DNA from: a virus
Strand: one strand, 5' to 3'
IMG/VR virus record: IMGVR_UViG_3300010883_000102
Coordinates: 1 to 40,304 of that record
Length of the DNA stretch: 40,304 nt
The position numbers and the translations under genes were made by a program. Each line of letters opens with the position of its first letter. The first letter of the stretch is position 1. The notes under the pieces were generated by a model. That model was not told the origin of the DNA, ran no database searches, and saw nothing but the letters and a program-made list of their open reading frames with translations. Below are positions 1-13,613 of the stretch, in pieces.

Positions 1-111
1 AGTAAGCAAGTAAGCAAGTAAGCAAGTAAGCAAGTAAGCAAGTAAGCAAGTAAGCAAGTAAGCAAGTAAGCAAGTAAGCAAGTAAGCAAGTAAGCAAGTA
101 AGCAAGTAAGC
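1..111. repeat. 8-bp tandem repeat array at the left edge
   Basis: The unit AGTAAGCA is repeated without error about 13.9 times. The array begins at the first base of the window, so the true copy number is unknown. The rightward strand has stops in every frame because an 8-bp period rotates the frame; the reverse strand is stop-free. T7 carries arrays of a 7-bp repeat next to its terminal repeats, and this array may be the counterpart here. It may also simply be where the assembly broke. Confidence 0.95.
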
Positions 112-221
112 CGGCAAGAGGTGCTATCATAAAAAGGGAGGGCCGGCGCTACTTTTTTATCAAAGGTGCTGCCTCTGCCTGAAAAGGAGAAAAATCCACA
201 TTAAAACATTGCCATAAGTAT
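112..221. other. Non-coding leader between array and first promoter
   Basis: No convincing gene is seen. The stretch holds two GCCGGC palindromes (111-115 region and about 143-149), two copies of AGGTGCT, and an A/T-rich imperfect inverted repeat (ATAAAAAG near 127-135 against CTTTTTTAT near 152-160) around the second GCCGGC. Such structure beside a tandem array could belong to a genome end or a packaging region, but nothing here proves it. Confidence 0.4.
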
Positions 222-249
222 TTGACATAACAATGTAATATGGTATTAT
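222..249 (+). promoter_or_regulatory. sigma70-like promoter P1 with dyad over the -10
   Basis: A consensus -35 TTGACA (222-227), a 16-bp spacer and TATTAT (244-249) preceded by TGG (extended -10). The -10 lies in a perfect inverted repeat, TAATA-TGG-TATTA. It would drive the small genes from 283 onward. The same 29-base pattern recurs near 1014 and 6867. Confidence 0.85.
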
Positions 250-282
250 AGTACTAGGAGATGAACACAGAAGGAAACGGGC

Positions 283-423
283 ATGAAGAAACACATTTTC
301 ACTGTTGTTGTCGAGTCGAGACCGGATATCCCCAAGTCCATGTTGCTCCAGGATTTGCATCATGTCTTGGATATTGCTGCCGACAATTCCCCGTACATCA
401 GAAACGTAGAGGTGAAAGGATAA
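283..423 (+). CDS. Small hypothetical protein (46 aa)
   Basis: The first plausible gene after promoter P1. ATG at 283 is preceded by AAGGAAAC, a reasonable ribosome binding site. An overlapping frame starting at ATG 261 is also open, but its AGGAG sits directly against the start codon and its product is Cys/His-rich and less protein-like, so 283 is preferred. The product starts MKKHIFTVVVESRP, with no recognised domain, membrane segment or signal. Its place at the left end behind a strong promoter suggests an early protein. Function unknown. Confidence 0.55.
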   Translation: MKKHIFTVVVESRPDIPKSMLLQDLHHVLDIAADNSPYIRNVEVKG

Positions 424-427
424 AACA

Positions 428-502
428 ATGACAGATGGTATGCTGGCTGGAAGTTTCTTCTGGACTATCTTAATCGTGGCCATCGTCACGTGTATTGTGT
501 GA
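428..502 (+). CDS. Putative single-pass membrane micropeptide (24 aa)
   Basis: ATG 428 to TGA 502 encodes a short peptide whose residues 7-24 form one continuous hydrophobic segment (SFFWTILIVAIVTCIV). It follows the previous gene by 4 bases and its stop overlaps the next start (TGATG at 500-504), so it is probably translated as part of a coupled set. Phages often encode such micropeptides as lysis or membrane effectors, but nothing here identifies the role. The small size keeps confidence moderate. Confidence 0.5.
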   Translation: MTDGMLAGSFFWTILIVAIVTCIV

Positions 503-618
503 TGAAATATCAACACAATAGGGGTGTGCTGCATCCCAAGGTGGTATGGGGTATATACTTACTCGTGCTATGCTGTGTGATTATAGTGGCATCCGTCGAG
601 GTGCCTGTCGGGGTGTGA
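502..618 (+). CDS. Putative single-pass membrane micropeptide (38 aa)
   Basis: ATG 502 overlaps the preceding stop (TGATG). The peptide has a basic N-terminus (MKYQHNRG, then HPK) followed by a hydrophobic stretch at about residues 14-34 that would span a membrane with the N-terminus inside. It is the second of two consecutive membrane micropeptides. The pair recalls overlapping small lysis proteins, but no lipobox or spanin motif is visible. Function unknown. Confidence 0.5.
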   Translation: MKYQHNRGVLHPKVVWGIYLLVLCCVIIVASVEVPVGV

Positions 619-620
619 CC

Positions 621-1022
621 ATGACCGGAACGTGCTGTGAAAAATTCCTACAAACCAAGTACCCAGATGCCACAGATAAGTTTTGGCACAGCGACCAAAG
701 CTTTTACGTGATGCGTAAGCCGAAAGGGGTTGCCGGAAACCTTATGGAGTGGTTCGAGAGTGAGTCCCCTCGGGACAGGTACTTTGGAGAATCTCACCTA
801 GAAGCCAGAAGAGTGATGGGTTTACGCCGCACACTGTCGGGGTTTGGGGTGTTTGTGTACTGGAAGTACCTGCAAGATAAAGGTACCAGCTTCAGGGATG
901 CGTCGAGCACTAGTACGAACTTGCATACTTCAGGATTCATGTATGCCAAGTGCTTCACCGTAGTGACTGATTGGGATACTAGATCCCTGTTGGCTGCCAT
1001 TGGGCTCACCGGCTTGACATAG
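621..1022 (+). CDS. Hypothetical protein (133 aa)
   Basis: The open frame extends upstream to 546, but ATG 621, two bases after the previous stop and with GGGG a few bases upstream, fits the packed arrangement better. The product begins MTGTCCEKFLQTKYPDA and contains aromatic and charged stretches (KFWHSDQSFYVMRKP; GFGVFVYWKYLQDKG) with no membrane segment. No family is recognised. Its 3' end overlaps the -35 box of promoter P2. Confidence 0.7.
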   Translation: MTGTCCEKFLQTKYPDATDKFWHSDQSFYVMRKPKGVAGNLMEWFESESPRDRYFGESHLEARRVMGLRRTLSGFGVFVYWKYLQDKGTSFRDASSTSTNLHTSGFMYAKCFTVVTDWDTRSLLAAIGLTGLT

Positions 1023-1041
1023 TATCGTAGTATGGTACTAT
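1014..1041 (+). promoter_or_regulatory. sigma70-like promoter P2 with dyad over the -10
   Basis: TTGACA (1014-1019), a 16-bp spacer and TACTAT (1036-1041) after TGG. The -10 is inside the perfect inverted repeat TAGTA-TGG-TACTA; compared with P1, one base pair of the repeat is exchanged on both sides. Predicted transcription start is near 1048, upstream of the tRNA-like gene at 1083. Confidence 0.85.
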
Positions 1042-1082
1042 ATTAGTAGGAAATGAGGAGCGAGCAACAATATGCTGATTAC

Positions 1083-1158
1083 GTCCCCGTCGTCTAGTGG
1101 TCAGGACGCCTGCCCTCTCGGGAAGGAAACGCTGGTTCAAATCCAGCCGGGGACACCA
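1083..1158 (+). tRNA. tRNA-Glu-like gene (CTC) with abnormal anticodon arm
   Basis: The acceptor stem (GTCCCCG with CGGGGAC), a Glu-type D arm, a perfect T arm (GCTGG / CCAGC around TTCAAAT) and an encoded CCA are all clear. Length is 76 nt. The anticodon arm is not normal. A 7-nt loop CTCTCGG, giving anticodon CTC, leaves two mismatches in the stem. Alternatively a better-paired stem (CCTGC / GAAGG, one G-A mismatch) gives an 8-nt loop. It could be a decaying tRNA, or a functional tRNA with an unusual loop. It lies directly behind promoter P2. Confidence 0.8.
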
Positions 1159-1236
1159 AATTTGTTTGTTACTATAGCAGCGAGTACATCTCCCGCTCCT
1201 GCGCCTTATAAAGTGGAGATACGAAAGAGGACTTAC

Positions 1237-1617
1237 ATGCCTAATCTTAACAACACGTCCCTAGGTGCTGTCCGTTCGTCCACCCCGGCTGGTGGCCGTA
1301 GTGTCCGGCGTTCGACCCTCACCGTGGGTGATCTCTACTCCGTCAAGGGTGGCAGCAACACCTACATGCACACCGGACGGCGCACGGCTCCCCCGTCGGG
1401 GCGTACCGTCGAGATCTCCGTGGGTGGTCGCTCGATGCAGCACGAGGTCTTCAAGAGCCTCGGCGTAGACGACAGCGGCAGCACCGTGATCGGCTTCCAG
1501 TCGATCATCGTCAAGGGCAGCATCACCCCGGGTTCGGATGGTGCTGCTGTGTCGTGGGAGGATAAGGAAGTCACGTTCCTGGGACGTGCCGCCATTGATC
1601 TGGGCGATCTCGCCTAA
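1237..1617 (+). CDS. Hypothetical protein in a GC-rich cassette (126 aa)
   Basis: The open frame runs upstream through the tRNA, so the start is set at ATG 1237, where AAAGAGG lies 6 bases upstream. The product starts MPNLNNTSLGAVRSS, is rich in Ser, Gly and Arg and probably beta-stranded; no family is recognised. Blocks of 60 bases inside the gene count 65-70% G+C, against about 47-50% around it. Flanked by a tRNA-like gene and a strong hairpin, it looks like an independently acquired unit (moron-like). Function unknown. Confidence 0.75.
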   Translation: MPNLNNTSLGAVRSSTPAGGRSVRRSTLTVGDLYSVKGGSNTYMHTGRRTAPPSGRTVEISVGGRSMQHEVFKSLGVDDSGSTVIGFQSIIVKGSITPGSDGAAVSWEDKEVTFLGRAAIDLGDLA

Positions 1618-1634
1618 TCACGGGGGGTACAACG

Positions 1635-1662
1635 GGGGAGGGTGCCTAAACCCTCCCCTTCC
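1635..1662 (+). terminator. Strong hairpin after the GC-rich gene
   Basis: A 9-bp perfect stem, GGGGAGGGT (1635-1643) with ACCCTCCCC (1650-1658), around a 6-base loop, followed by TTCCTTCC. The tail is pyrimidine-rich rather than a pure T run, so it may be a partial terminator or RNA-processing hairpin. A near-identical stem occurs on the other arm at 32187-32209. Confidence 0.6.
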
Positions 1663-1686
1663 TTCCAGCCTTAATGGAGATTAGCG

Positions 1687-3372
1687 ATGCGCTACACTGT
1701 TGCTGCCACCCGCGTCAAGGACGTGTTTCAGAAAGGGCGGTGCGAAGAAATGAACCTAGACTTCGACAAGTCCTTGTGGGAAAAGGATTTGGCCAAGCAT
1801 TGGGATGCCCCCTACGTGCATGGTATGGCTGTGTTTCTCCGTAGCAAGATGACGTACATCAGGCGTATGCACGTCCTGATTGATTCCTGTGGTTTCGATG
1901 CAAGCGTTGTTAAAACCCTCAAGAAGCATGTGTTTCTCCCGACCGATAGCAAGGACCTGTCACTGGTCAAGGTGTACCCTGATGTTCGTCTGCCGGATAA
2001 TATGGGGGATTTCTACACTATAGACCGCCTTACCTTTGGTTTTGTTGGCATCAACATGGGTGGCACCGTGAAGCTACTAAAAGCCAAGGCAATAAACCCT
2101 TATACCAAGTCTCGCTTCGAGGGCATCATCCCATCCCTGCGTGAGATTAGCAAGGGGCGCAAGGTTATGAAGATAGGTAAGTTTCTTACTGATGTTCTGG
2201 GGTTGCGTGATGATCTAGTCAGGGATATTGCATCATCCCTTCAGAGCGAGTACGTTCTCCCCCCTCTGTTCATCTGCGAGACGGCGGAAGACTACCACAC
2301 CATGTACAATACCGGGCCCTCGTCGTGCATGACTGAGAATAGCCCGCATGGCTTCAAGTCTGGTGTGCTGGAGGAGGGGGTCAAGTTTCACCCTGCATCA
2401 ATGTACCACTACATCCCCCTTACTGGTGGGGCCTTCTTTACTAAGAAGGGTGCGGTGGCCGCACGTGCTGTACTTCTTCGCAAAAGCGTGGAAGACAAGC
2501 TGTTTACACACATTGGCAGGGTGTACGCCAACAATGAGGCTGATGGCAACAAACTTAAACGCCTCATCAAAGAGACGTACAACCCCGATATCCGCATGGA
2601 CCCCTGCCATGTTTCACCGGAGGGCCCCTTCGAGGTAGAGGGTAGGCGCAGCCCCAAGGGAGGGGGTTACGCTATTCCGTACCCGTACTTCGACAACGTA
2701 AAAACTAGTAATTTGTACATCATGCCCAAAGAAGGTGTTGAGGGTACGTACATAGTTGGCTCTATTGACAAGCTTGGGGGTTCGTACGGTTCGGCCCACC
2801 ACAATGCTGTACGCTTTCGCCCAACGTCAGGCCGTTGGATGATGTCCAATACCATGGCCCCTAAAATACCGTGCACCCAGTGCGGCCAGTCTTATCAGGC
2901 TTCCACGGCAGTCGGTATTGATCTCCCTGATGGGAGGCAGGTGTGCTCCTCGTCTTGTGCCAGAGATGGCGGGTACATGCCAGTGTACAACGGCCGTGGT
3001 GTAATTCATGCTTGGGTCCCATATACTACAAATTCTTACCCGATCCTGCCACCACCGTATGTATACTACGTGGGGCAGAGGTGGTACACCAATGAGGAGG
3101 CGTTGCGGCGCACGTCGTCAGCGATGCTTCTAAGGATTATTCTTAGGGGATCTACCACGGGCAAAAACATGTCGGACTTCCTGGCTAACCCCTTGATGTA
3201 CCCGTATTTTCACCACTACACTGCACCAATGGAGCAGTACAACGTCCGCTTGGAATTCGACAGCAAGTTCAAGTCAGACATCATATTTGATATATTCCAC
3301 GATGGACGCTGCAGTACCCTAGAGCCGCAAAGATTCCCAGCTGGGGTAGCCCACTTCAGCATAAAGCTATAG
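1687..3372 (+). CDS. Large hypothetical protein with putative zinc-binding cysteines (561 aa)
   Basis: ATG 1687 follows AATGGAG at a suitable distance. I do not recognise the family. Visible features are a motif YHTMYNTGPSSCMTEN near residues 204-219, many conserved-looking aromatic and Gly residues, and a four-cysteine set CxxC (396, 399) and CxxxC (420, 424) that could bind zinc. There are no membrane segments or signal peptide. Its position, between the left-end genes and the peptidase/primase cluster and transcribed rightward, suggests an early or DNA-metabolism role, but that is only inference from context. Confidence 0.9.
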   Translation: MRYTVAATRVKDVFQKGRCEEMNLDFDKSLWEKDLAKHWDAPYVHGMAVFLRSKMTYIRRMHVLIDSCGFDASVVKTLKKHVFLPTDSKDLSLVKVYPDVRLPDNMGDFYTIDRLTFGFVGINMGGTVKLLKAKAINPYTKSRFEGIIPSLREISKGRKVMKIGKFLTDVLGLRDDLVRDIASSLQSEYVLPPLFICETAEDYHTMYNTGPSSCMTENSPHGFKSGVLEEGVKFHPASMYHYIPLTGGAFFTKKGAVAARAVLLRKSVEDKLFTHIGRVYANNEADGNKLKRLIKETYNPDIRMDPCHVSPEGPFEVEGRRSPKGGGYAIPYPYFDNVKTSNLYIMPKEGVEGTYIVGSIDKLGGSYGSAHHNAVRFRPTSGRWMMSNTMAPKIPCTQCGQSYQASTAVGIDLPDGRQVCSSSCARDGGYMPVYNGRGVIHAWVPYTTNSYPILPPPYVYYVGQRWYTNEEALRRTSSAMLLRIILRGSTTGKNMSDFLANPLMYPYFHHYTAPMEQYNVRLEFDSKFKSDIIFDIFHDGRCSTLEPQRFPAGVAHFSIKL

Positions 3373-3389
3373 AGAACGAGGAGATACCA

Positions 3390-4835
3390 ATGTATAGCAG
3401 CTTTATCAAACAACTGGTCAACAAGCCCTTGTTGGACGTGAAAAAGTCTGTGCGCAAGTCGGATGATTTCAAATCGGCAAGGGGAAAATTTGGCCCCCTT
3501 ACTGCCGTCACGAATGAGCTACACAAGTCTCTACTCGGTATGCTGTCTATTGCTACCCCAATGGGTAGCGAGCACCTCATGGAAGAATTTCTTCCGAAGG
3601 GTGCGGATAAGGATCAGCATGGCAACTATATCCTGCATGTAGGAAAGAGCAGGGATCACCACACTGTGTTCTCGTCTCACCTGGATACTGTGCACAAGAC
3701 GGCTGGTAAGATCGTGCCAATTATCAGCGACAGCGGTATCGTGTTTGCCGAGACCCTCGAAGGCAAGCCCTCTGTGCTTGGTGCCGACGATAAGGTGGGT
3801 GTGTGGCTCATGCTCCAGATGATTGAAGCAAAGATCCCTGGCATCTACGCCTTTCACTACGGCGAGGAACGAGGTGGCGTGGGGTCGTCTGCCTTGGTAA
3901 GTGGTAAGCCACAATGGCTGGGCAACATCAAGAAGTGCATTGCCTTTGATCGGGCCAACTACGGTGACGTGATTGACACTCAGTTTGATAAGTGTTGTAG
4001 CAAGGAGTTTGCTGAGGCGTTGTCGTTAGAGCTGAACAAGCACACCCCGCCGCGTATTGAGTTCAAGCCAGCACGTGGTACGTTCACTGACTCGGCAAAC
4101 TATGCTGGGGATGTGCCGGAATGCACCAACATCAGTGTGGGCTACTTCCAGCAGCACAGCACCACTGAGCACTTCGATGCGTACTGGGTGCAGAAGATGC
4201 TGCTACCAGCTATCCTCAAGCTGGATTGGGCCGGCCTTCCTGTGGTACGTGACCCCGCTGGCAGCCGCGCCCCGAAGCACACCAGAAAAATTGTCTACAC
4301 ACCTGCCAAGCCTAGTATAGACATTCCGTATGCGCGGCAGCCCTTTCCTGGGTCGGACTTCCAGAAGGCTGACTGGAAGACGATAGGCACGTCACCCAGT
4401 GACATGCCCGAGATGGATATCATGACGGATACGTTCCCGATTGACTTCTCCATGTCCCTGCTTCAAAAGGAAAGCTCGCTGCACAAAACAGCGCAAATGG
4501 TTGGTCTTCGTGGGCTTATCACTGGCATCATCTCTCTTATCGAGTGGAAGGGCAAGGCCCGGATCACATTCGATAACCTGAATGACCTGTTGGACAGCAG
4601 GGATAAGGCTGTCAAGGCCCTCACTGCACAAAACTCTGACTTTGAGAAGGAGAAGTCGGCACTGGAGAGCATAATCACTGTGCTGGACGATAAGGCCATC
4701 GCAATGGAGAAGCTAATCCTTGAGACGTTCGGTGATGAGGAGGGCCTAGTGCACCTCAAGGCCGTGTACGCTGAAATGGACCTTGACTTTGAGACCATCA
4801 TGCTCGAAGACAAGGTGCCCGACTGTGTCAATTAA
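3390..4835 (+). CDS. M20-type (peptidase T-like) metallopeptidase with coiled C-terminus (481 aa)
   Basis: Residues about 55-280 show the ordered metal and catalytic motifs of zinc peptidases of the M20/M28/M42 type: HLDTVH (H97, D99), GADDKVG (D133), GEERGGVG (catalytic Glu 159/160), FDRANYGD (D187) and a late TTEHFD (H261). GADDK plus the EE pair is closest to peptidase T. Residues about 370-480 are polar and helical with a coiled-coil look (DKAVKALTAQNSDFEKEKSALE), and have no match I know. Start ATG 3390 has GAGGAG upstream. The end overlaps the primase start, so it is likely co-expressed with replication genes. The substrate is unknown: host peptides as an amino-acid source, or a specific host target, are both possible. 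An endolysin role is less likely, as this family cleaves small peptides. Confidence 0.85.
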   Translation: MYSSFIKQLVNKPLLDVKKSVRKSDDFKSARGKFGPLTAVTNELHKSLLGMLSIATPMGSEHLMEEFLPKGADKDQHGNYILHVGKSRDHHTVFSSHLDTVHKTAGKIVPIISDSGIVFAETLEGKPSVLGADDKVGVWLMLQMIEAKIPGIYAFHYGEERGGVGSSALVSGKPQWLGNIKKCIAFDRANYGDVIDTQFDKCCSKEFAEALSLELNKHTPPRIEFKPARGTFTDSANYAGDVPECTNISVGYFQQHSTTEHFDAYWVQKMLLPAILKLDWAGLPVVRDPAGSRAPKHTRKIVYTPAKPSIDIPYARQPFPGSDFQKADWKTIGTSPSDMPEMDIMTDTFPIDFSMSLLQKESSLHKTAQMVGLRGLITGIISLIEWKGKARITFDNLNDLLDSRDKAVKALTAQNSDFEKEKSALESIITVLDDKAIAMEKLILETFGDEEGLVHLKAVYAEMDLDFETIMLEDKVPDCVN

Positions 4836-5646
4836 CTCAGTTGTGAAGGGGCTGTCGGGCTCCCTTCAAACGGGACAGAGCAAGCGGATTGATTGCCCCT
4901 CGTGTGGTGGTAAGGGGTGCATGTCCGTATCCAAGATGGGTGGCAAGGTCGTGTACTACTGCTTTCGTGCCAACTGTGGTGTGAAGGGGTTGGCGCGTGG
5001 CAAGATGTCCGAGGAAGAGCTTCTTAGCATCAAACTATCTAACACGGTAGGGAGCCCATCTCGGGACGTGTTCGTAACGCCTGACCATTTCACCCGTACA
5101 CTACCGCTTGAGGTAACCGACTACCTATGCAGACACAACTGCCTGTCTGCTCTGCTGGACAACCGCATTCGTGTCATGTACGACACACTAAAAAACAGGT
5201 GTGTGTTCCTGTTGTACAGTGAGTTCAATATGCTGGTTGGCGCGGTTGGTAGGTACATGGGCGAGGGGGCAGCTGACGATGGCGGGAAATGGCGTAGGTA
5301 CGACAAATATTCATCTGTTCTGTTCCCATCCATGCAAGATGAGTATATGGGTAGCACATGCATACTTGTTGAAGACACGCTATCAGCCATAGTGTGCGGA
5401 TATTTTATGCCCGCAATCCCGCTGCTCGGTACCAGTCTATCCACATCGGTACTTAGCTACGTCACCACCATGTACGACAGAATAGGTATTGCGCTAGATC
5501 CTGACGCCACAGCTAAGAGTATCAAACTCATGAAACAGCTTGGGGCCTTTAGGGAGACAACCCTGTGCACATTCACTGACGATCCGAAGAACCTCCCTCT
5601 TGACTCTATTGAAGAAGGGTTGCAACTGTGGAAACTAATATCGTAA
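4825..5646 (+). CDS. DNA primase, zinc finger plus TOPRIM (273 aa)
   Basis: Synthesises RNA primers at the replication fork, like the N-terminal half of T7 gp4. Seen: a zinc ribbon CPSC (C24, C27) and CFRANC (C46, C51), then the TOPRIM motifs ILVEDTLSA (E183) and ALDPDA (D225, D227). The open frame reaches back to a TTG at 4783, but GTG 4825 has AAGG about 9 bases upstream and sits in an overlap with the peptidase stop, so it is chosen. The helicase gene begins 19 bases before this stop. In T7 primase and helicase are one polypeptide; here they are two overlapping genes, as in some other phages. Confidence 0.92.
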   Translation: MSINSVVKGLSGSLQTGQSKRIDCPSCGGKGCMSVSKMGGKVVYYCFRANCGVKGLARGKMSEEELLSIKLSNTVGSPSRDVFVTPDHFTRTLPLEVTDYLCRHNCLSALLDNRIRVMYDTLKNRCVFLLYSEFNMLVGAVGRYMGEGAADDGGKWRRYDKYSSVLFPSMQDEYMGSTCILVEDTLSAIVCGYFMPAIPLLGTSLSTSVLSYVTTMYDRIGIALDPDATAKSIKLMKQLGAFRETTLCTFTDDPKNLPLDSIEEGLQLWKLIS

Positions 5647-6842
5647 AGGGACTACTCAATGCAGAACTATATGGAAAATATCACAGCACAATACCATCTG
5701 ATTGTTTTAGCCGCATTGGTGCTACTTACGTTGATGCTATTGTTAAACTTCACGGGCAGACTCCTGGTGGGGACCTCCCTCTGGATACCGTCAGTGTATT
5801 TTGTAAATCATCTCCCGGCCTTACTCCTGCTAACGAGCAGCTGATTGACACATACGCTGAGAATTTAGAGAAGGCTGCCCCTCAAAGTGAGGAGGTATTC
5901 TCACAATTTGCCAGTCGCTTTGTGTACAATGAGCAGGTGCGCGCTCTTGCTGAGGTGGCTGTAGAAGGCTTATCCAGCAAAGAGCTTGATGCCCCTCGTG
6001 CAAGACAGCTGCTAGACAACATTGAGTCCGGTTCAACGCAGGGGTCCCTTAGAGAGACACCAGCGGATCTTTCTAGTTTCCTGGAACTATCCCATCCCGA
6101 TAACTTAATCCCCTTCAATCTCCCTGGCGCAGAGGAAATGCTGCCTGGGTTGGCTGGGGGCCATAACGTGATTATCTTTGCCCGGCCAGAGGTTGGCAAG
6201 AGCTCTCTTACAGCTCAGTTTGTTAGTGGCTGGCTGAGGCAGGGCCATAGGGTCAATTACTATGGCAATGAGGAGCCTGTATGGAAGATCGGCCTGAATG
6301 TCGTTCGCAATGCGTTGAGTATGAGCGATAGAGAGCTTCAGGATAACAAGGCCAGGCACCCCGAGCGATTGGCTGAGTGGGACGTGCTACAGGAAAACCT
6401 GAAACTGGTGGACTGTGTTGGTATGACGCTAGGGGACCTGCGGGCGCATGTTAAGCGCACCAAACCCAAGTTTATTGTGGTGGATCAGGCGGATAAGGTG
6501 GAGACAGGAAGTGCTGACAGGTACACACACGGTGTGCTCAAGGATATCTATGCATCTATCCGTACAATCGCCAAAGAAAGTGACGCCATCACAGTGAACG
6601 TATCGCAAGCAGGTGCTGACGCAGATGGAAGGCGCTGGTTGTCTTACAGTATGCTGGATAACTCGAAGACAGGTAAGGCAGGTGAGGCCGATTTGATTAT
6701 TGGTGTGGGTACTGACCCAGGGGAGGCTAATCGCAACCCCATGAGGTACTTGTGTATCTCCAAGAACAAGATCAATGGTGTGCATGGCCAAATCACGACT
6801 ATATTTGAGCACACACGCAATCAATGGAGTGTTGCAGTATGA
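5628..6842 (+). CDS. Replicative DNA helicase, DnaB/gp4 family (404 aa)
   Basis: Unwinds the template strand at the fork and would partner the primase just upstream. Residues 1-150 form a helical N-terminal domain. The RecA-like domain begins near 160 with a Walker A variant FARPEVGKSS (K191), has Walker B FIVVDQAD (D286), and later VNVSQAG and the ISKNKING motif typical of this helicase class. Start GTG 5628 follows AAGGG at a good distance and overlaps the primase end. The stop overlaps a 14-codon ORF (6839-6883) that I do not annotate as a gene. Confidence 0.93.
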   Translation: METNIVKGLLNAELYGKYHSTIPSDCFSRIGATYVDAIVKLHGQTPGGDLPLDTVSVFCKSSPGLTPANEQLIDTYAENLEKAAPQSEEVFSQFASRFVYNEQVRALAEVAVEGLSSKELDAPRARQLLDNIESGSTQGSLRETPADLSSFLELSHPDNLIPFNLPGAEEMLPGLAGGHNVIIFARPEVGKSSLTAQFVSGWLRQGHRVNYYGNEEPVWKIGLNVVRNALSMSDRELQDNKARHPERLAEWDVLQENLKLVDCVGMTLGDLRAHVKRTKPKFIVVDQADKVETGSADRYTHGVLKDIYASIRTIAKESDAITVNVSQAGADADGRRWLSYSMLDNSKTGKAGEADLIIGVGTDPGEANRNPMRYLCISKNKINGVHGQITTIFEHTRNQWSVAV

Positions 6843-6866
6843 ACACAAGTATTTGGGAATCGCCCC

Positions 6867-6894
6867 TTGACTTAACGCCGTAGTGTGGTATTAT
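6867..6894 (+). promoter_or_regulatory. sigma70-like promoter P3 before the polymerase genes
   Basis: TTGACT (6867-6872), a 16-bp spacer, TGG and TATTAT (6889-6894). It matches P1 and P2 at 20 of 29 aligned positions, but its inverted repeat over the -10 is degraded (TAGTG-TGG-TATTA). Predicted transcription start is about 6901, essentially at the start codon of the next gene. Confidence 0.8.
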
Positions 6895-6899
6895 AAGTG

Positions 6900-7442
6900 A
6901 TGGGAACAGAGCAAATAACATTCACTGACGCTGAGACAACGTTTCAGACCGTCAACAACAAACGAAATCCGCTTCCGTTTTTGCCAGAGAACTACCTTGT
7001 GAGCCTTGGGTTCCTGCGTGAGGATGAGGAAACATACCTCCCCTTCACACATAACGAATTCCCCAGTGAGGTGGCAGCCACTTCCATGGAAATAGCCCAA
7101 GGTGTGCTTGACAAGACTACACTTTTGGTGGCCCACAACATGAAGTTTGATCTGCAATGGATACATGCTGTGGGGCTGAAGTACGACGGGCAGATATACT
7201 GCACACAGATCGCGGAGTTCATCATAGCCAGTGGTGTGTACCGTCCGCTGGACCTTAGCAGCTGTGCTCGTAGGTATGGTGGCAAGGGCAAACTAGACAC
7301 GGTGGCCATTGAGTACTGGGACAAGGGTGTCCAGACAGATATGGTGCCGTGGGAGGTACTGAAGGAGTACGGCATCAGGGATATCCGCGAGATGATGTAT
7401 GTCTACAATTCTCAGCAGGAGGTGGTACGTGCCTACTTTTAA
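6900..7442 (+). CDS. 3'-5' exonuclease subunit of a split family A DNA polymerase (180 aa)
   Basis: Carries the three proofreading motifs of the DnaQ-like exonuclease domain found at the N-terminus of T7 and Pol I type polymerases: Exo I DAE (D10, E12), Exo II AHNMKFD (N80, D84) and Exo III YGIRD (Y157, D161). It ends right after Exo III, so the polymerase domain is on another gene downstream. Start ATG 6900 (or GTG 6897) is forced by the nearby Exo I motif; there is no Shine-Dalgarno sequence, and promoter P3 would make an almost leaderless transcript. It probably works with the polymerase product, in trans or as a complex. Confidence 0.9.
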   Translation: MGTEQITFTDAETTFQTVNNKRNPLPFLPENYLVSLGFLREDEETYLPFTHNEFPSEVAATSMEIAQGVLDKTTLLVAHNMKFDLQWIHAVGLKYDGQIYCTQIAEFIIASGVYRPLDLSSCARRYGGKGKLDTVAIEYWDKGVQTDMVPWEVLKEYGIRDIREMMYVYNSQQEVVRAYF

Positions 7443-7725
7443 GGTGTATAGGGTTGGTATAAGGCTCACAGTGCTAGAAAACTACCGGCCAAGGGACTGG
7501 TATAGGCTAAGGAAGGGTGACGTCTGGCTTATAGAAGGCACGTCTGGTTACGGCGGGTCTACAAGATACCATCTTAGTCGGGATAATGAGCAAGGGGAGT
7601 CATTGTACGGCAATACCATATTTTGGGCAACGGGGGATTATCTTGCAAGGAAATTCAGTACCGCGCCTCTCACCACCACCCAGATACTTGGAAGGATGCC
7701 TGTAGAATCATGCCTGCAACCATAA
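7429..7725 (+). CDS. Hypothetical protein between exonuclease and polymerase genes (98 aa)
   Basis: The open frame begins at ATG 7399, but GTG 7429 has a perfect AGGAGG (7417-7422) six bases upstream, inside the end of the exonuclease gene. The product (VPTFKVYRVGIRLTVLENYRPRDWYRLRKGD in part) is rich in Arg and aromatics and probably beta-rich. No homing-endonuclease motif (HNH, LAGLIDADG, GIY-YIG) is visible. Overlap with both neighbours suggests translation together with them. A polymerase-associated role is possible but unproven. Confidence 0.75.
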   Translation: MPTFKVYRVGIRLTVLENYRPRDWYRLRKGDVWLIEGTSGYGGSTRYHLSRDNEQGESLYGNTIFWATGDYLARKFSTAPLTTTQILGRMPVESCLQP

Positions 7726-9284
7726 GAAACGTCATGGCCGTGTCCTTCGATCTCTGCGTTGTACTAGCAGAGGTTGAGGCAAATGGCATGAAGATAGACG
7801 TTGAAGCTCTGGAGAAGATCGACAAGGATCTTGAGCAGGAGGAGAAGGATCTTCTGGAGGTTATCGACAGGACCATTACCGAGTTCTCTGGTGATGACAA
7901 GATTAACATCAACTCAAATGATGATCTCTCTCGCTTCATATACAGCAGAAGCCCAAAGGACAAGAAGCAATGGGCTAGTGTGTTTGAGATTGGTACTGAC
8001 GACAGGAACTCAGTCAAGAAGGCGAAGAAACCAAAGAGGTATCCGAAGGGTCAGTTCTCCACTCTAGTCAGGGCTCTTACTGATGTCTACCTGAAGCAGA
8101 GAGCATCCCGGTGCAGTAACTGTAATGGGTACGGCAAGATCTCACGCAGGAAGAAGGGTGGTGGGCATACCAAGCCCAACTACATCTGTCCGGAATGTAG
8201 TGGGAAAGGGTTCAATCTGAGGCCCATAGCACGTAATGGTAGTTGGGTTACGGCTGGGCTAGGGCTACCAATTCTGAATGTGCAGAGTGTCGCTGCACAT
8301 GGGTTCCCAACAGATAAAGGCACTCTATCGGAGTTAAAAAGCTATGCCACCACAAAAGAGCAACGGGACTTCCTCACGGCAATGGAGCGCATCGGCTCAG
8401 TTAGAATCTACAGATCGAATTTCGTCAATGGAATACGGAGAAATGTCCAGAAGCATACCGGAATACTTCATCCAAAGTTTAATCAAACAGTTGCGGCAAC
8501 AGGGCGGCTATCAAGCAGCGATCCGAATCTCCACAATCAACCACGAGGAGCAACACTACCTGTTAGAAGGTGCATTGTTAGTAGATGGAGAGGAGGAAAA
8601 ATCCTAGAGGTTGACTTTTCCACCCTTGAGTTCAGGGTGGCTGTAGAACTGTCTGGCGATAAGGTGGGACTGGAGGAATTATCAAGTGGGGATCTCGATG
8701 CACACACCAGGACGGCGCAAATCCTCAAGGATCACGGTCAAAAAACTTCGAGGCAGGATGCAAAGGCAGACACTTTCAAGCCTCTATATGGTGGTTCTTC
8801 GGGAACCCCCGCGCAAAAAGCGTACTATGCATTTTTCGCAGAGCACTATGCCGGAATTGCCTCGTGGCACAACGAGCTTTGTAGAGAGGCCGTCCAATGT
8901 AAGAGGATTAAGATTCCTAGTGGACGAGAGTACTCTTTTCCCGACGCTAGAGAACTTTATGATGGATACGTCCTTGGTTCCACGCAAATTAAGAACTGGC
9001 CTGTTCAGGGATTTGCAACGGGCGATCTTGTTCCAGCAGTTGCAATCGAGGTCTGGAGATACCTTCGAGACAAGCGTTCACTTCTAATCAATGAGGTGCA
9101 TGACAATGTCGTTATTGACCTTCATCCTGAAGATATTGCTGTAGTGCCTCCCGCAGTGGTTGAAATTATGTCTAATGCTCATGTCATTCTTGAGCAGCGA
9201 TACGGGTATGCCTCCACTGTGAGGTACCCAGTAGAGGCTAAGATTGGTGACAACTGGTTGGATATGGAGACCTTACATGACTAG
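7710..9284 (+). CDS. Family A DNA polymerase, polymerase domain (524 aa)
   Basis: Copies the phage genome. Seen in order: an N-terminal helical part (LAEVEANGMKIDVEAL), a pair of CxxCxGxG-type knuckles (C135/C138, C160/C163), the TGRLSSSDPNLHNQP motif, motif A DFSTLEFR (D302), motif B RQDAKADTFKPLYG (R348, K352, Y360) and motif C VHDN (H464, D465, N466). Motif C normally reads HDE. The frame extends upstream to TTG 7623, but ATG 7710, with GAAGGA upstream, fits better; spacing is 13 bases. The exonuclease domain is on a separate gene. From about 8390 the base and codon use seem more A-rich than in the first third. Confidence 0.93.
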   Translation: MPATIRNVMAVSFDLCVVLAEVEANGMKIDVEALEKIDKDLEQEEKDLLEVIDRTITEFSGDDKININSNDDLSRFIYSRSPKDKKQWASVFEIGTDDRNSVKKAKKPKRYPKGQFSTLVRALTDVYLKQRASRCSNCNGYGKISRRKKGGGHTKPNYICPECSGKGFNLRPIARNGSWVTAGLGLPILNVQSVAAHGFPTDKGTLSELKSYATTKEQRDFLTAMERIGSVRIYRSNFVNGIRRNVQKHTGILHPKFNQTVAATGRLSSSDPNLHNQPRGATLPVRRCIVSRWRGGKILEVDFSTLEFRVAVELSGDKVGLEELSSGDLDAHTRTAQILKDHGQKTSRQDAKADTFKPLYGGSSGTPAQKAYYAFFAEHYAGIASWHNELCREAVQCKRIKIPSGREYSFPDARELYDGYVLGSTQIKNWPVQGFATGDLVPAVAIEVWRYLRDKRSLLINEVHDNVVIDLHPEDIAVVPPAVVEIMSNAHVILEQRYGYASTVRYPVEAKIGDNWLDMETLHD

Positions 9285-9699
9285 GCACATCGCTACATTA
9301 CGAGAAGTGTACAGGAGCCAGGGGGTAAAGGCCAGTGATCTGTACCAACTTCGGTACCAGAACTCCAGATGGAACCCAAGGAAAAAGATTGTGGGGGTGT
9401 ATTGGAAGCCTTATGCTGAGGCTACTCTCATGAAAGCCCTGACGGAGTACGTGATCGGTGTATCTTTTGAGATACCCACCAAAGGCATCAGGATTTCCTT
9501 CGATGGGGGATCTTTCTGGTATCTTAACTCATGGAACCAGATATGCCCATTCAGGAGCTACCTGAGGTGCTACCACTCAGGTAAGACAACGCAAAGAGGA
9601 ACTGATTCCACCACAAGAATATGCCTAACTTCCCGCAAGGTTACAACAAAGAGATTGCTGAGTGTTGTACTCCCCGGGCGTAAAGCCCCTATAGCATAA
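9277..9699 (+). CDS. Hypothetical basic protein (140 aa)
   Basis: ATG 9277 overlaps the polymerase stop (TAG 9282-9284) and has GGAG upstream. The first about 95 residues look like a normal soluble basic domain (MTRHIATLREVYRSQGVK; PRKKIVGVYWKPY). The last about 45 residues are unusually rich in Ser, Thr and Arg, and a different frame there also reads plausibly, so the C-terminus may reflect a frameshift or recent change. No recognised family. Confidence 0.6.
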   Translation: MTRHIATLREVYRSQGVKASDLYQLRYQNSRWNPRKKIVGVYWKPYAEATLMKALTEYVIGVSFEIPTKGIRISFDGGSFWYLNSWNQICPFRSYLRCYHSGKTTQRGTDSTTRICLTSRKVTTKRLLSVVLPGRKAPIA

Positions 9700-9728
9700 C
9701 ATGGAAAAGAGGATTTGTCAATAAAAAA

Positions 9729-9926
9729 ATGGCACGGAAACAAAACAAGACCCACCCATGGAAACAACCATGGTCACTAAAAGAGCAGCTAAGGCAGCAG
9801 GAAGACGACCTAGCTGAGTGGGAGACCGAGTTGGATTATCTTCCAGTGGAAAAAGACAAAGACATAGTTAAGCACTTTACAGCCATCAAAGCAATTACAG
9901 ATGTAGAGGATAGGTTTGATGTTTGA
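9729..9926 (+). CDS. Small charged hypothetical protein (65 aa)
   Basis: ATG 9729 after an A-rich stretch; AGAGGA lies about 15 bases upstream, a weak site. The product is highly charged with a helical middle (LKEQLRQQEDDLAEWETELDYL), likely a short coiled coil. It overlaps the start of the nucleotidyltransferase gene by 8 bases. Function unknown. Confidence 0.6.
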   Translation: MARKQNKTHPWKQPWSLKEQLRQQEDDLAEWETELDYLPVEKDKDIVKHFTAIKAITDVEDRFDV

Positions 9927-10545
9927 ATACGACACTGTGGGGCTCAGGGCACTGGAGGCTCGAGTGGAGGGTATTCGTGCCATGCTCCCCGGTGTTGAGC
10001 TATACCTAGCTGGTGGGGCTGTGAGGGACCTGTTCGTCAGAGCAAAAAGCGGAAGGTTCGTAGCACAGGCCATAGGATCAAGGGACCACGACATATGGAC
10101 CAATTCCAATTTAGAATTCATCCGCCGTAGACTAGATAAGAATGTGACAAAGGAGAAGGCCATCACACTTGGCTTGTATGGGTCACACTCACGCGCCATA
10201 GGAGGCGTGATTAAGTACAATGGCTGTGACTTCATACATGTGCAGACAGATAGCAAACCACTCAATCTACACGTTCTGCTTGATGACTTCGACATTGGAA
10301 TGTGCCAGATGGGTTTGAAACTCGACGGCACGCCATACATGACGGCAAAGGCTTGTAGGGATTTGATGATGGGCCAATTCACTTTGTACTGCGAGAACTA
10401 CGATGCCGTAAACACATCACGTTCCTTTCGTCGAATGCACAAGTTTTTTATGCGCCACGGGGACCGCTACAATTATGTAGTCGTATCAGGGAAAAGGAAG
10501 CTGGATTATGTACCGTCGTTCTGTAGAAATGTCGAGGCGCTCTGA
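9919..10545 (+). CDS. Nucleotidyltransferase of the poly(A) polymerase/CCA-adding superfamily (208 aa)
   Basis: The N-terminal half has the Pol-beta-type nucleotidyltransferase signature: LAGGAVRD (G32-D37) followed by RDHDIWT (D56, D58), and a later acidic site in the LLDDFDIGMC segment. These carboxylates bind the two metal ions. The protein is shorter than full CCA-adding enzymes and lacks a clear RNA-binding tail. ATG 9919 has AGAGGATAGG upstream. It lies about 0.6-1 kb before tRNA-Arg and tRNA-Thr. The phage tRNAs already encode CCA, so repair of tRNA ends or modification of another RNA or protein are alternatives. Confidence 0.8.
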   Translation: MFEYDTVGLRALEARVEGIRAMLPGVELYLAGGAVRDLFVRAKSGRFVAQAIGSRDHDIWTNSNLEFIRRRLDKNVTKEKAITLGLYGSHSRAIGGVIKYNGCDFIHVQTDSKPLNLHVLLDDFDIGMCQMGLKLDGTPYMTAKACRDLMMGQFTLYCENYDAVNTSRSFRRMHKFFMRHGDRYNYVVVSGKRKLDYVPSFCRNVEAL

Positions 10546-10720
10546 TGCCAAGTACAATGTTTGGTTGTTCGATGCACACGTCAGCCACCACTACTACGAG
10601 TGGGCCGTAGTGGACGTTCTCGACGCACCCATCCCCAGGGCGTCGCTCAAGGAGTACCTTGGTAGAGAAAGAGCAATCATCAAGAACATCACCAAGCTTG
10701 AGGAAGGATGGGGGGGGTGA
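10508..10720 (+). CDS. Hypothetical protein (70 aa)
   Basis: ATG 10508 has AAGGAAG seven bases upstream and lies inside the nucleotidyltransferase gene end; a second ATG at 10529 is possible. The product (MYRRSVEMSRRSDAKYNV) is basic at the N-terminus, with aromatic residues in the middle and a Lys/Glu-rich end. It is probably translated with its neighbours. No family recognised. Confidence 0.6.
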   Translation: MYRRSVEMSRRSDAKYNVWLFDAHVSHHYYEWAVVDVLDAPIPRASLKEYLGRERAIIKNITKLEEGWGG

Positions 10721-10721
10721 G

Positions 10722-11108
10722 ATGGACACCATATTTTTCGGCGTCAACAGATTTGCCAAGGACTCAGATGCTCTGCTCCGTTTGGTAAAACGTAGGGACC
10801 GTGGGGAGAGCCCCCTTGAGGTGAGCATTTTAGCTGAGGCCGAGGGTTGCTACCCACCCCAGATGGGGTACGGAGAACACCTGTCGTACCAAGGTGAGGC
10901 TGGCTTTTACGTTAAGGCGTGGGTGTACAGAAATGGACTGTGCTTCCATGAAAATCCAGGGTGTGGGCACGGCAGCGTTGGCCCAACTGATATGAATTCT
11001 GGCTGGTACGTTAACATAAAAAATGTATTCAACGATGCCAGGATAACCAGACACCAGTTCCGGCAGTTTGCTGCGAATGACAAAGCCTTTATCAATATGC
11101 TCCTGTAG
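10722..11108 (+). CDS. Hypothetical protein whose 3' end lies in tRNA-Arg (128 aa)
   Basis: ATG 10722 follows a run of seven G that serves as ribosome binding site; the frame extends upstream, but the overlap with the preceding gene makes this start best. The product begins MDTIFFGVNRFAKDSDALL and has Gly-, Tyr- and Cys-containing segments (ENPGCGHGSVGPTD). No membrane segment or family is recognised. The last three codons plus stop overlap the first ten bases of the tRNA-Arg gene, so either the RNA or the protein is made from a given transcript end. Confidence 0.65.
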   Translation: MDTIFFGVNRFAKDSDALLRLVKRRDRGESPLEVSILAEAEGCYPPQMGYGEHLSYQGEAGFYVKAWVYRNGLCFHENPGCGHGSVGPTDMNSGWYVNIKNVFNDARITRHQFRQFAANDKAFINMLL

Positions 11109-11175
11109 CTCAACCGGATAGAGCAGCGGACTTCTAATCCGCAGGTTGCAGGTTCGAGTCCTGCCAGGAGCGCCA
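11099..11175 (+). tRNA. tRNA-Arg (anticodon TCT)
   Basis: All four arms pair fully: acceptor GCTCCTG / CAGGAGC, D arm GCTC / GAGC, anticodon stem GCGGA / TCCGC with loop CTTCTAA, T arm GCAGG / CCTGC. CCA is encoded. It reads AGA codons, which phage genes here use more freely than a GC-rich host would be expected to. Confidence 0.95.
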
Positions 11176-11197
11176 ACCGCTATCAGGGGGAGTACGA

Positions 11198-11431
11198 GTG
11201 ACGGGACTACTGTATGCAGCACATGCAATCATCCTTGTATGGGCAGGGCCCAACGGTTCTGCGTTCGAGGAGTACCATACCCGGCATGTGTGGAGTAGCC
11301 GTGAGTCATGCGTCAAGGCTGTACAAAGGGAGGCAGAAAGACGCAAGGGTGCAGCCACAATCGTAGTATGTACCTTACATCAGGAGTCACTTAATATAAA
11401 GAGCAAAAGGGATAATACACTTGACATATAA
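11198..11431 (+). CDS. Small putative exported protein (77 aa)
   Basis: GTG 11198 follows AGGGGG at about 8 bases. The N-terminus (MTGLLYAAHAIILVWAGPNGSAFEE) is hydrophobic and could be an export signal or membrane anchor. The mature part is polar with two cysteines (SRESCVKAVQREAE and VVCTLHQE) that could pair in the periplasm. Small Cys-pair exported proteins of this shape are common in phages and their role is unknown. Its end overlaps the -35 of the promoter for tRNA-Thr. Confidence 0.6.
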   Translation: MTGLLYAAHAIILVWAGPNGSAFEEYHTRHVWSSRESCVKAVQREAERRKGAATIVVCTLHQESLNIKSKRDNTLDI

Positions 11432-11449
11432 TGAAAAGTGTGTTATGCT
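11421..11449 (+). promoter_or_regulatory. sigma70-like promoter before tRNA-Thr
   Basis: TTGACA (11421-11426), 17-bp spacer, TATGCT (11444-11449). It differs from P1-P3: no TGG extension and no dyad. It would transcribe tRNA-Thr and the candidate ssDNA-binding protein downstream. Confidence 0.6.
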
Positions 11450-11486
11450 ATAAGAACGCTGGGGAATAAGAGGAAGATTTCCCTAA

Positions 11487-11563
11487 GCCGAGTTAGCTCA
11501 GTCTGGTAGAGCAGCTGCCTTGTAAGCAGCAGGTCGCGGGTTCAAATCCTGCTCTCGGCACCA
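11487..11563 (+). tRNA. tRNA-Thr (anticodon TGT)
   Basis: Acceptor GCCGAGT / TCTCGGC (the innermost pair is T-T), D arm GCTC / GAGC, anticodon stem GCTGC / GCAGC with loop CTTGTAA, T arm GCGGG / CCTGC with a G-T pair, CCA encoded. It reads ACA. Confidence 0.93.
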
Positions 11564-11607
11564 CTACCCCCGCAGTGCGGGGTATATTTTCAGAAAGGAA
11601 TTTTATA

Positions 11608-12456
11608 TTGCCAGATAATTTACCCGCGATCTCAGCCAACATGTCTAACGAAGACCTCATGCGAGCAACAGGCCAGAAGGTCGAGGATTTCTCCTCGTCT
11701 CTGCCCCGGTTGAAAGTTAACTACCAAGATGAAGATGCAGATGGGCACGAGCTCCCAAGGGGCTACTGGTACCTATCCATCGAAGGGAAGGCCATCTTGG
11801 CCAAGGACGTTATGTTCCGCCCCTTCTACACCACCTTTCAGTACTCCCACTACGACCAGGAAGAGCAGAAGCTGGTCTCCGTGTCGGCCCACTTCAGTGA
11901 TTTCCGCAGTGAAATCATCGACAGTGCTGGGGGGTTCAAGTGTGGTAAGCTATCCCCGAAGGAACGCGAGCAGCTATCGCCCAAGGAGCAGGAGCAGCAG
12001 AAGAGCATCAAGTGCTCCAAGGTAATCTATGGGCTGGCCACAATCTCGGGCAAGACCCCCTCTGGTGAGGATGCGGAAGCGGCCAACGTTCCGTGTGTGT
12101 TCTTTGCCCGTGGTTCTAACTTCATGCCCATGTCTGGGTTCTTCACGAGTTTGACGAAGAGAAATATGTTGATGCAAACTGTCAACGCCAAACTCGTCCC
12201 GATCAAGAAGAAGAATGGTGGCGTCACCTACTGGGAGATCGCCCCCGAAGTGGTTGACACAGTGGTCCTCACACCTGAGGACTTCGAGTTGCTGACTGTG
12301 TTCAACGATACCATCCATGCTGAAAATGAGCATATCAAAGAGCAGTGGTATAAGAATAGAAGCCAAAAGAAGGCCGGTGTGCCGGAGGCTGCCGCTAAGA
12401 TTCTGGGTGGCTCCATTAAGCACGACTTTGACGACGAACTTCCCATACTAGCCTAG
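11608..12456 (+). CDS. Candidate ssDNA-binding protein (282 aa)
   Basis: The frame begins upstream at GTG 11575, but TTG 11608 has AGAAAGGAA eight bases before it and is preferred; ATG 11641 is an alternative without a good site. The protein is mainly soluble and beta-rich, with two Cys pairs (GGFKCGKL, SIKCSKVI). A glutamine/glutamate/lysine-rich loop around residues 115-130 holds two SPKE repeats. It ends in an acidic tail with a hydrophobic tip (DFDDELPILA), as in SSBs such as T7 gp2.5. That tail, its place beside the nucleases, and the lack of another SSB candidate support the call; no OB-fold motif can be proven by eye. Confidence 0.55.
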   Translation: MPDNLPAISANMSNEDLMRATGQKVEDFSSSLPRLKVNYQDEDADGHELPRGYWYLSIEGKAILAKDVMFRPFYTTFQYSHYDQEEQKLVSVSAHFSDFRSEIIDSAGGFKCGKLSPKEREQLSPKEQEQQKSIKCSKVIYGLATISGKTPSGEDAEAANVPCVFFARGSNFMPMSGFFTSLTKRNMLMQTVNAKLVPIKKKNGGVTYWEIAPEVVDTVVLTPEDFELLTVFNDTIHAENEHIKEQWYKNRSQKKAGVPEAAAKILGGSIKHDFDDELPILA

Positions 12457-12477
12457 CATACGGCATAACATAACAGG

Positions 12478-12508
12478 GGGCGGGGGGCACATCCCCGCCC
12501 TCATTTTT
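12478..12508 (+). terminator. Rho-independent terminator
   Basis: GGGCGGGG (12478-12485) pairs perfectly with CCCCGCCC (12493-12500) around a 7-base loop, followed by TCATTTTT. It closes the transcription unit of the candidate ssDNA-binding protein, perhaps partially, since genes continue downstream. Confidence 0.8.
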
Positions 12509-12519
12509 GGGAGATACAA

Positions 12520-12732
12520 ATGGTTTCGCTTGCTGCACTAGATACATCAGGTACTATCGCGGACTACGCCAGAGGTTCCATCGAACGTGAGCTTGCGGAG
12601 TTCCGCTTGTCATGGTATGGCTTCGATATCTTCGACATTCAACAGATGCTGGACGAGATTGATGAATTGTACCCTGACAAGGAGCCGAACGAGATTGATG
12701 AAGAGGAGGAGGAAGGAGGAGTATTTGCCTAA
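12520..12732 (+). CDS. Small acidic protein (70 aa)
   Basis: ATG 12520 with GGGAG six bases upstream. The C-terminal half is strongly acidic (DEIDELYPDKEPNEIDEEEEEGG). The stop overlaps the nuclease start (TAATG). Small acidic phage proteins often bind host proteins or imitate DNA, but no family is recognised and the role is unknown. The coupling suggests a link to the nuclease. Confidence 0.75.
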   Translation: MVSLAALDTSGTIADYARGSIERELAEFRLSWYGFDIFDIQQMLDEIDELYPDKEPNEIDEEEEEGGVFA

Positions 12733-13613
12733 TGCCAGACACTATAATTCCAAGGGTCAAGATGTTCTTGTCCCAGGTGAACGAGGGAAGGGGCGAGATT
12801 TCCGACCAGTTGGTTGAGGAATTTGGCGAAGCTTGCAAGAATCTGATGCGTTCTCGCCTTCAAGAGAAGCCAAGGAAATACACGATCCGTATGTCCGGTA
12901 TCGGTAGGCCCATGTGCCAGCAGCAGATGGAGAAGGCTGGTGCTGAGCGTGTGAACGACAGCCCTTGGCACCCCATGAAGATGCTGCTTGGTGGCATGGT
13001 AGAAGAGGCGGTCACGACGATTATGAAAGCCGCGGGCGTTAACGTGGAGAGCGAGCAGGAAGCTGTCTCGCTACAGGTTACACCGGAAGTACGGGTCAAC
13101 GGCACACTGGACGTGACCATCGATGGTAAGGTCTACGACGTCAAGAGTGCAAGCCCGTATGCATTCACCAATAAGTTCGGTCCCATGGGAGGGTTCAGCT
13201 CTATTGTGAATGATGATCCCTTTGGTTACGTGCAACAAGGGTACCTCTACTCGGAGGCCAAGGACATGCCATTTGGAGGGTGGATTGTAGTCAATAAGGT
13301 GGACGGTGAGTGGGCTGTTTGTGAGCCACCTATGGTTGACAACAGTTATCGCAAGAAGGCGCTCAGCGACGCTGCTACGAACGTTAACACCATAACTAGT
13401 GATGCACCATTCCGACGCTGCTTCGGGCTTATCGAAGAGACGTTCTACAAGAAGCCCACAGGCAACCAATACCTGGATATTACATGCTCCTATTGCCCGT
13501 ACAAGAACACCTGTTGGGGTAACGTTACTAACGCACCAGTAGTGAAGAGCAAAGCCAAGACTCCGGCGTATCGCTGGTACGTGGGGGAAGTGAAGGGGTT
13601 GGATGAACACTAA
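12732..13613 (+). CDS. PD-(D/E)XK exonuclease with an iron-sulfur cluster, Cas4/RecB type (293 aa)
   Basis: Nuclease motifs: GTLDV (D127), YDVKSA (D136, K138) and the QxxxY helix VQQGYLY (Q169, Y173). Four cysteines, C62 (RPMCQQQ) and C252-C255-C261 (CSYCPYKNTC), match the pattern of Cas4, AddB and related nucleases, in which one upstream Cys and a C-terminal CxxCx5C hold a 4Fe-4S cluster. Probably degrades host DNA or resects phage ends for recombination, taking the place of T7 gp6. ATG 12732 overlaps the preceding stop. The gene overlaps the next nuclease gene by 11 bases. Confidence 0.85.
   Translation: MPDTIIPRVKMFLSQVNEGRGEISDQLVEEFGEACKNLMRSRLQEKPRKYTIRMSGIGRPMCQQQMEKAGAERVNDSPWHPMKMLLGGMVEEAVTTIMKAAGVNVESEQEAVSLQVTPEVRVNGTLDVTIDGKVYDVKSASPYAFTNKFGPMGGFSSIVNDDPFGYVQQGYLYSEAKDMPFGGWIVVNKVDGEWAVCEPPMVDNSYRKKALSDAATNVNTITSDAPFRRCFGLIEETFYKKPTGNQYLDITCSYCPYKNTCWGNVTNAPVVKSKAKTPAYRWYVGEVKGLDEH

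Follow-up and report, generated by a model that had tools for sequence, protein, structure and literature searches.

In the CB5 study, a putative function was proposed for one alone of six conserved early genes, and this function was a peptidase (IPR007484) (PMC6115819). Peptidase is also the annotation of KP34 gp11, PhiM1_10, VPy02_35, Buco gp10, and Ep4_008, whose genes all lie in the same spot before the primase and helicase genes. Rac (LUZ19 gp28) of the phiKMV-like phages is a GNAT; when it is expressed, an as yet unidentified protease cleaves host RNA polymerase alpha (PMC7552054).

The present study analyzed 40,304 nucleotides of viral DNA (positions 1 to 40,304 of the IMG/VR record IMGVR_UViG_3300010883_000102), hereafter called the window, which encodes a relative of these peptidases. 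At E<=0.01, relatives were detected in 389 of 50,697 phage records (best E=1e-46), mostly from phages of Klebsiella (230), Pectobacterium (51), and Vibrio (42), and many of the 389 records carry the annotation peptidase. A preliminary description of the window regarded the place of this gene before the primase as unexpected. However, this place is standard in KP34, PhiM1, VPy02, Buco, and Ep4, and the peptidase gene alone is already known as an ordinary annotated phage gene. The new finding is another gene, not described before, that usually accompanies the peptidase. No account of this peptidase-partner pair was found in the open-access literature.

The peptidase gene and its active site

The peptidase ORF (3390..4835, plus strand) starts with ATG and encodes 481 amino acids, as previously described. 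A probable ribosome-binding site, AGGAG (3379..3383, plus strand), lies 6 nt before the ATG, and the GC content by codon position (0.55/0.38/0.66) is coding-like. The gene lies upstream of a DNA primase gene (4783..5646, plus strand; PHROG 47), which may alternatively start at GTG 4843, and of a DnaB-type helicase gene (5628-6842), both of which were assigned by PHROG searches. The protein matched PHROG 4191 (peptidase) with E=4.4e-64 over residues 47-292, the catalytic core. Based on its sequence, the ORF very probably encodes an active metallopeptidase.

The predicted active site is intact. H97-x-D99 (codons 3678..3686) provides the first metal ligand and the orienting Asp, D133 (3786..3788) the bridging metal ligand, E159-E160 (3864..3869) the catalytic base and a metal ligand, and D187 (3948..3950) and H256 (4155..4157) the remaining metal ligands; all of these codons are on the plus strand. 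This arrangement follows the clan MH order of ligands (H-x-D, bridging D, E-E, D/E, H). The seven residues did not vary in alignments of 14 and 36 sequences. The metal ligands and catalytic Glu that had been claimed for this protein are thus all present, and a search for the loss of zinc ligands in relatives found them retained in 36/36.

In M20 enzymes, an inserted lid/dimerization domain of approximately 100 residues separates the fourth ligand region from the fifth, while in M42 enzymes the inserted lid domain follows the first H-x-D and precedes the bridging Asp. D187 and H256 are separated by 68 residues, which form core secondary structure only in the alignment and AlphaFold model; therefore, the M20 lid is absent. 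The M42 lid is also absent because only 33 residues separate D99 from D133. The AlphaFold model of the core (residues 44-290; pLDDT 85-98) is a plain catalytic domain.

Pfam Peptidase_M28 (PF04389) passed its cut-off (23.5 bits against 21.3) through a partial match to profile positions 5-99 of 193, and among the 36 relatives, M28 was matched by 16, M42 by 5, and M20 by 1. In Foldseek searches, the best match was the PepT-like structure 3gb0 (E=5e-9), followed by M42/TET enzymes and then M28 enzymes; LysK was also matched. Profile searches against solved structures similarly placed peptidase T-like proteins nearest (E=4e-16), together with TET/M42 aminopeptidases. Its closest relatives of solved structure comprise di-, tri-, and aminopeptidases. 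NCBIfam revealed a weak similarity to N-acetyl-lysine deacetylases (E of about 0.1), and the PepT-like model TIGR01883 scored 22.4 bits, which is far below its curated cut-off of 274. Membership in M20 or peptidase T was rejected based on the missing lid and this score. Of the original designation as M20/peptidase T-like, the clan-level similarity to peptidase T holds, whereas membership in the M20 family does not because the lid is absent and Pfam prefers M28. Aminopeptidase activity is typical of clan-MH enzymes that lack the M20 lid. We assign the protein to PHROG 4191 as a lidless clan-MH enzyme that appears closest to M28 in its build and is predicted to be of the aminopeptidase type.

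The catalytic core is followed by a C-terminal tail (residues 295-481; 4272..4832, plus strand) that AlphaFold modeled as a low-confidence linker and then helices of a coiled-coil-like appearance. Residues 295-412 were mostly below pLDDT 50, and the helix at 416-462 reached about 58-73. A tblastn search of residues 271-481 against the phage collection returned zero matches even at E=10. This agrees with the unmatched coiled C-terminal region noted in the preliminary description, with the helices modeled at low confidence. As a known-family domain for the tail, a weak match to RTEL1 ARCH (E=0.015) was below the cut-off and was taken as chance.

Other features of the window were also noted. DNA polymerase A appears to be split into a 3'-5' exonuclease ORF (6897-7442) and a polymerase ORF (7623-9284), which share one reading frame interrupted by a stop, and the polymerase ORF contains a zinc finger of the DnaJ-like CXXCXGXG type (residues of about 160-197). 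Positions 9916-10545 encode a PcnB-like nucleotidyltransferase (PHROG 1614); the nucleotidyltransferase gp22 of fHe-Kpn01 was one of three proteins toxic to Escherichia coli (PMC7291057). The replication half (1-18500, plus strand) and the structural half (18740-40175, minus strand) point toward each other, and no phage RNA polymerase was matched among the subset of window ORFs scanned. Therefore, the genome may not belong to Autographiviridae, despite the shared early cluster.

The partner gene and its association with the peptidase

The partner gene (1687..3372, plus strand) ends 17 nt upstream of the peptidase start and encodes a protein of 561 amino acids, which profiles and gene neighborhood placed in what we call the SCM family. 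It comprises a helical N-terminal domain with the motif KIGKF (residues of about 138-189; 2098..2253), identified from the model, hhalign, and hmm searches, and a GNAT-like core (residues of about 195-334; 2269..2688), identified using AlphaFold and Foldseek against PDB and BFVD. The family signature S213-C214-M215 (2323..2331) was recognized in family alignments. All three are on the plus strand. Pfam and NCBIfam gave no convincing family and no name for the partner, a match to PHROG 6980 was weak, and a tblastn search of the whole protein against phages yielded no match. Relatives were only found through the motif, gene neighborhood, profiles, and structure. The scan for related loci used an alignment of huge-phage partners, and iterated profile searches recovered the family from many loci.

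The signature of the family, SCM...Y...R...R-x-Y...PY-x-D, was initially read in the neighbors of distant peptidases. The podovirus and large-phage subsets of the family align by profile with E=1e-10. Among 80 aligned partners, Y146 and R166 (fragment numbering) were invariant, and Y113, R184, Y186, P239, Y240, and D242 were nearly so; the invariance of S-C-M in these 80 is partly by construction because the fragments were selected on SC[MQK]. The partner gene of VPy02 (L009:1591-3729, an ORF of 713 aa) is absent from the annotation of its record, and Buco gp9 (L010:3199-4923), also a partner, is annotated as a putative GIY-YIG endonuclease, a label without support in this analysis. Some partner paralogues of huge phages (L034:10113-11687, L059:8041-9552, L069:8715-10133, and L072:10913-12310) end in DnaJ-like CXXCXGXG zinc-finger repeats.

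The AlphaFold model of partner residues 95-412, built with 80 sequences, had a pTM of 0.68 and a core pLDDT of mostly about 80-94. When PDB was searched with this core using Foldseek, GNAT proteins made up nearly all of the top 50, with probabilities of up to 1.0, a best E of 4e-3, and a TM-score of about 0.4-0.5 on the target, and the order of elements in the model fits beta1-alpha1-alpha2-beta2-beta3-beta4-alpha3-beta5 of GNAT. Among viral models (BFVD), the partners of KpV48, Buco, YMC11, and Nobby came first (E 1e-8 to 6e-6), followed by viral acetyltransferases. Based on these models, the partner is likely to have a GNAT-like fold. The S-C-M motif would lie in a loop that follows the first core helix and that we place on the substrate-binding side of GNAT. 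The acetyl-CoA loop R/Q-x-x-G-x-G/A was found in 0/80 aligned partners, and sequence profiles detected no Pfam GNAT match among the 80 partners and no GNAT of PDB. Since this loop is absent in 80/80 and the match to GNAT is structural only, the partner may not be an enzyme.

To quantify the association, we used loci retrieved through the peptidase only, each with 1.5 kb or more of flanking sequence on either side, after the removal of redundant entries. A partner was present within 300 bp of 37 of the 58 peptidases without an N-terminal extension and of 0/18 with an extension, a contrast that does not represent a set of independent events because the paired and N-extended peptidases belong to different clades. 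L024 was counted as non-extended in these numbers (raw 36/57 against 1/19, uncorrected Fisher p=8e-6) because its motif is CHMDVV near residue 87. The chance level is roughly estimated at a few percent from 28 full-length partner matches in about 3.66 Mb (~1/130 kb), in contigs chosen for having no partner beside the peptidase.

The partner family adjoins the peptidase in KP34, PhiM1, Buco, Ep4, Pasto, BDU-MI-1, VPy02, phi38:1, Thermus TSP4, and huge phages. The genomes with the pair range over 44 kb podoviruses, the 121 kb BDU-MI-1, Thermus TSP4, Cellulophaga phi38:1, phages of 600-700 kb, and bacterial contigs. In a scan of bacterial and archaeal genomes, 8 of 15 peptidase loci had an adjacent partner, including one with two pairs and one with the reversed order. 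A contig of Mesorhizobium sp. STM 4661 (L181) contains two partner-peptidase pairs within 10.7 kb. Among all loci, a set biased by the inclusion of loci fetched by the partner, the two genes were on the same strand in 65/67 pairs, and the distance matrices of peptidase and partner correlated with r=0.85, which was reached in 0/2000 permutations; this mirror-tree correlation is partly explained by shared phage descent. Same-strand cluster representatives had the partner upstream in 29 cases and downstream in 19.

No adjacent partner was detected for 21/57 non-extended peptidases (raw count), including those of Jenst, FADO, EF5, and P23-45, and a partner profile search in EF5, FADO, Jenst, P23-45, and LR756502 gave no significant match. 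However, JENST_170 shows the pattern TSCQ...PYID, and a 466-aa protein of the Brevibacillus phage SecTim467 was matched by structure (E=6e-4); Jenst therefore probably has a partner, 1.7 kb away and on the other strand. JENST_170 (L013:1899-3296) has the same zinc-finger-ended build as the huge-phage paralogues. The product of fado_82, downstream of the FADO peptidase, is missing the signature and was left out of the partner count. The partner family occurred without the peptidase in 25/36 searched contigs, many of which are fragments.

A further link was identified in huge phages. Their N-extended peptidases and the N-terminal domain of the partner have the motif MKIGKFIR...F...EI..F...YN in common (hhalign E=5e-6, probability 86%), and a whole-contig run of the partner profile independently matched the N-extended peptidase ORFs with E up to 5.8e-8 in a single record. 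The huge-phage peptidases bearing the KIGKF domain on their own chain are those without an adjacent partner (0/18). Huge-phage contigs hold up to 4 peptidases and up to 5 partner paralogues. The partnership of the two genes is well supported, and we consider it probable that the peptidase and its upstream partner form a real functional pair.

Possible roles of the two proteins

We tentatively propose that the two genes form an early module for host takeover, which consists of a GNAT-like protein and a lidless enzyme of the aminopeptidase type. The peptidase, with its two-metal, lidless, M28-type build, may be one half of this conserved module, and the other half would be the upstream partner with its helical N-terminal domain and a GNAT-like core without the usual acetyl-CoA loop. 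We infer that the two proteins may form a physical complex and that, during takeover, they may act jointly on the N-terminal amino groups of peptides or proteins of the host. In the chemistry and sequence of events that we envisage, the GNAT-like partner would recognize or modify the target, and the peptidase would then trim or process it. GNAT-fold proteins typically act on amino groups. The lidless clan-MH build and the GNAT-like fold would therefore both point to the alpha-amino groups of peptides or proteins. The preliminary description, which did not mention the partner, also suggested that the peptidase might attack a specific host defense or signal peptide. The conserved GNAT-like partner is compatible with a specific host target of the peptidase, and a host N-terminus is a possible, albeit doubtful, candidate for this target. 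PADLOC defense models gave no convincing match to the peptidase and partners, with E>=0.03 only. We also speculate, with little confidence in the whole of the scheme, that the two-protein system edits selected host N-termini: the GNAT-fold protein, using a non-CoA donor or serving in recognition, would mark or hold the N-terminus for processing by the lidless aminopeptidase, and huge phages would have multiplied both halves into differing specificities, in some cases fusing the recognition domain to the peptidase.

Several other explanations need to be considered. The preliminary description initially suggested a stand-alone exopeptidase that recycles the peptides of degraded host proteins into amino acids. 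An intact active site, the di-, tri-, and aminopeptidases among its nearest solved relatives, and the presence of the gene in hundreds of phages are consistent with recycling. However, recycling appears unlikely because it leaves unexplained the conserved placement of the gene beside that of an unrelated protein across distant phages, the KIGKF domain common to the partner and huge-phage peptidases, and the multiple peptidases and partner paralogues in single huge-phage contigs. It is even less probable that the two proteins are a writer and an eraser, with the GNAT-like protein acylating an amine and the peptidase-fold enzyme deacylating it, as in ArgA/ArgE or the deacetylases of lysine biosynthesis. 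The modeled fold of the partner, the weak NCBIfam similarity to N-acetyl-lysine deacetylases, and LysK among the fold matches may be cited for this pairing. However, substrate binding by M20 deacylases depends on the lid domain, which the peptidase lacks, and the acetyl-CoA loop is missing from the partner.

Data from fHe-Kpn01 bear on another alternative, in which the two proteins would not be early intracellular enzymes but would belong to the virion, be injected, or process virion proteins. The partner (gp12) and peptidase (gp13) of this phage are noted, together with gp14, as found by LC-MS/MS of phage particles, whereas the record has no comparable entry for its primase, helicase, or DNA polymerase. 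However, carry-over is likely because the same list also includes the scaffolding protein, maturases, RNA polymerase, exonuclease, and endolysin; therefore, LC-MS/MS indicates expression more safely than packaging. Moreover, in Autographiviridae as in the window, both genes are grouped with early and replication genes and not with the structural ones, and we regard a virion role as improbable. The toxicity screen of fHe-Kpn01 proteins left out those associated with virions (PMC7291057), and the pair was apparently among these. The two genes may also be neighbors through the shared descent of an early gene block, without any functional link. Phage phylogeny alone would produce the mirror-tree correlation, and about a third of non-extended peptidases had no adjacent partner. 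Nevertheless, the pair is found repeatedly in unrelated genomes and with either gene upstream, which one fixed block would not predict, and the domain common to both proteins provides an extra link; shared descent without function is an explanation to which we assign a low probability. We prefer the two-gene takeover module.

Comparison with known systems

The pairing joins two orphan families, present in hundreds of phages, many of Klebsiella and some among the largest known, into one testable unit, for which a fold has been predicted, the active site is intact, and model phages are available. The window peptidase resembles the other members of PHROG 4191, such as KP34 gp11 and PhiM1_10, in its catalytic core, ligands, place before the primase and helicase, and the kind of partner upstream. 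In contrast to these proteins, it has a core preceded by about 45 residues and followed by a C-terminal tail of 190 residues that was matched nowhere else, and its identity to the peptidases of the named phages is about 40% or less over residues 44-290.

Among cellular enzymes, the M28 aminopeptidases (the Aeromonas aminopeptidase, LapA, and LapB) share the ligands H, D, E, D, and H, the catalytic E, and the absence of a lid with the window peptidase, which also passed Pfam M28. However, identity in the fold matches is 13-15%, and the M28 enzymes of solved structure that were matched are secreted, whereas a phage protein made early would be expected in the cytosol. The M20B peptidase T and tripeptidases (3gb0 and 3rza) are the best profile and fold matches among solved structures; however, the window peptidase has no lid/dimerization domain, and its PepT-like score is below the cut-off.

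For the partner, the FemABX-type and other aminoacyl-tRNA-dependent transferases offer a precedent for a GNAT-like fold with a donor other than acyl-CoA, and Sba18 (9wqy) was among the fold matches; however, these transferases matched the partner more weakly than ordinary GNATs. The closest functional precedent, likened by description, is Rac, in which a phage GNAT protein is also tied to the proteolysis of a host protein. Unlike the window partner, which lacks the acetyl-CoA loop, Rac possesses an acetyl-CoA pocket, and it has not been reported to be linked with a phage peptidase. If host N-termini are indeed edited, the module would represent a new route of takeover or counter-defense beside ADP-ribosylation and Rac-type acetylation.
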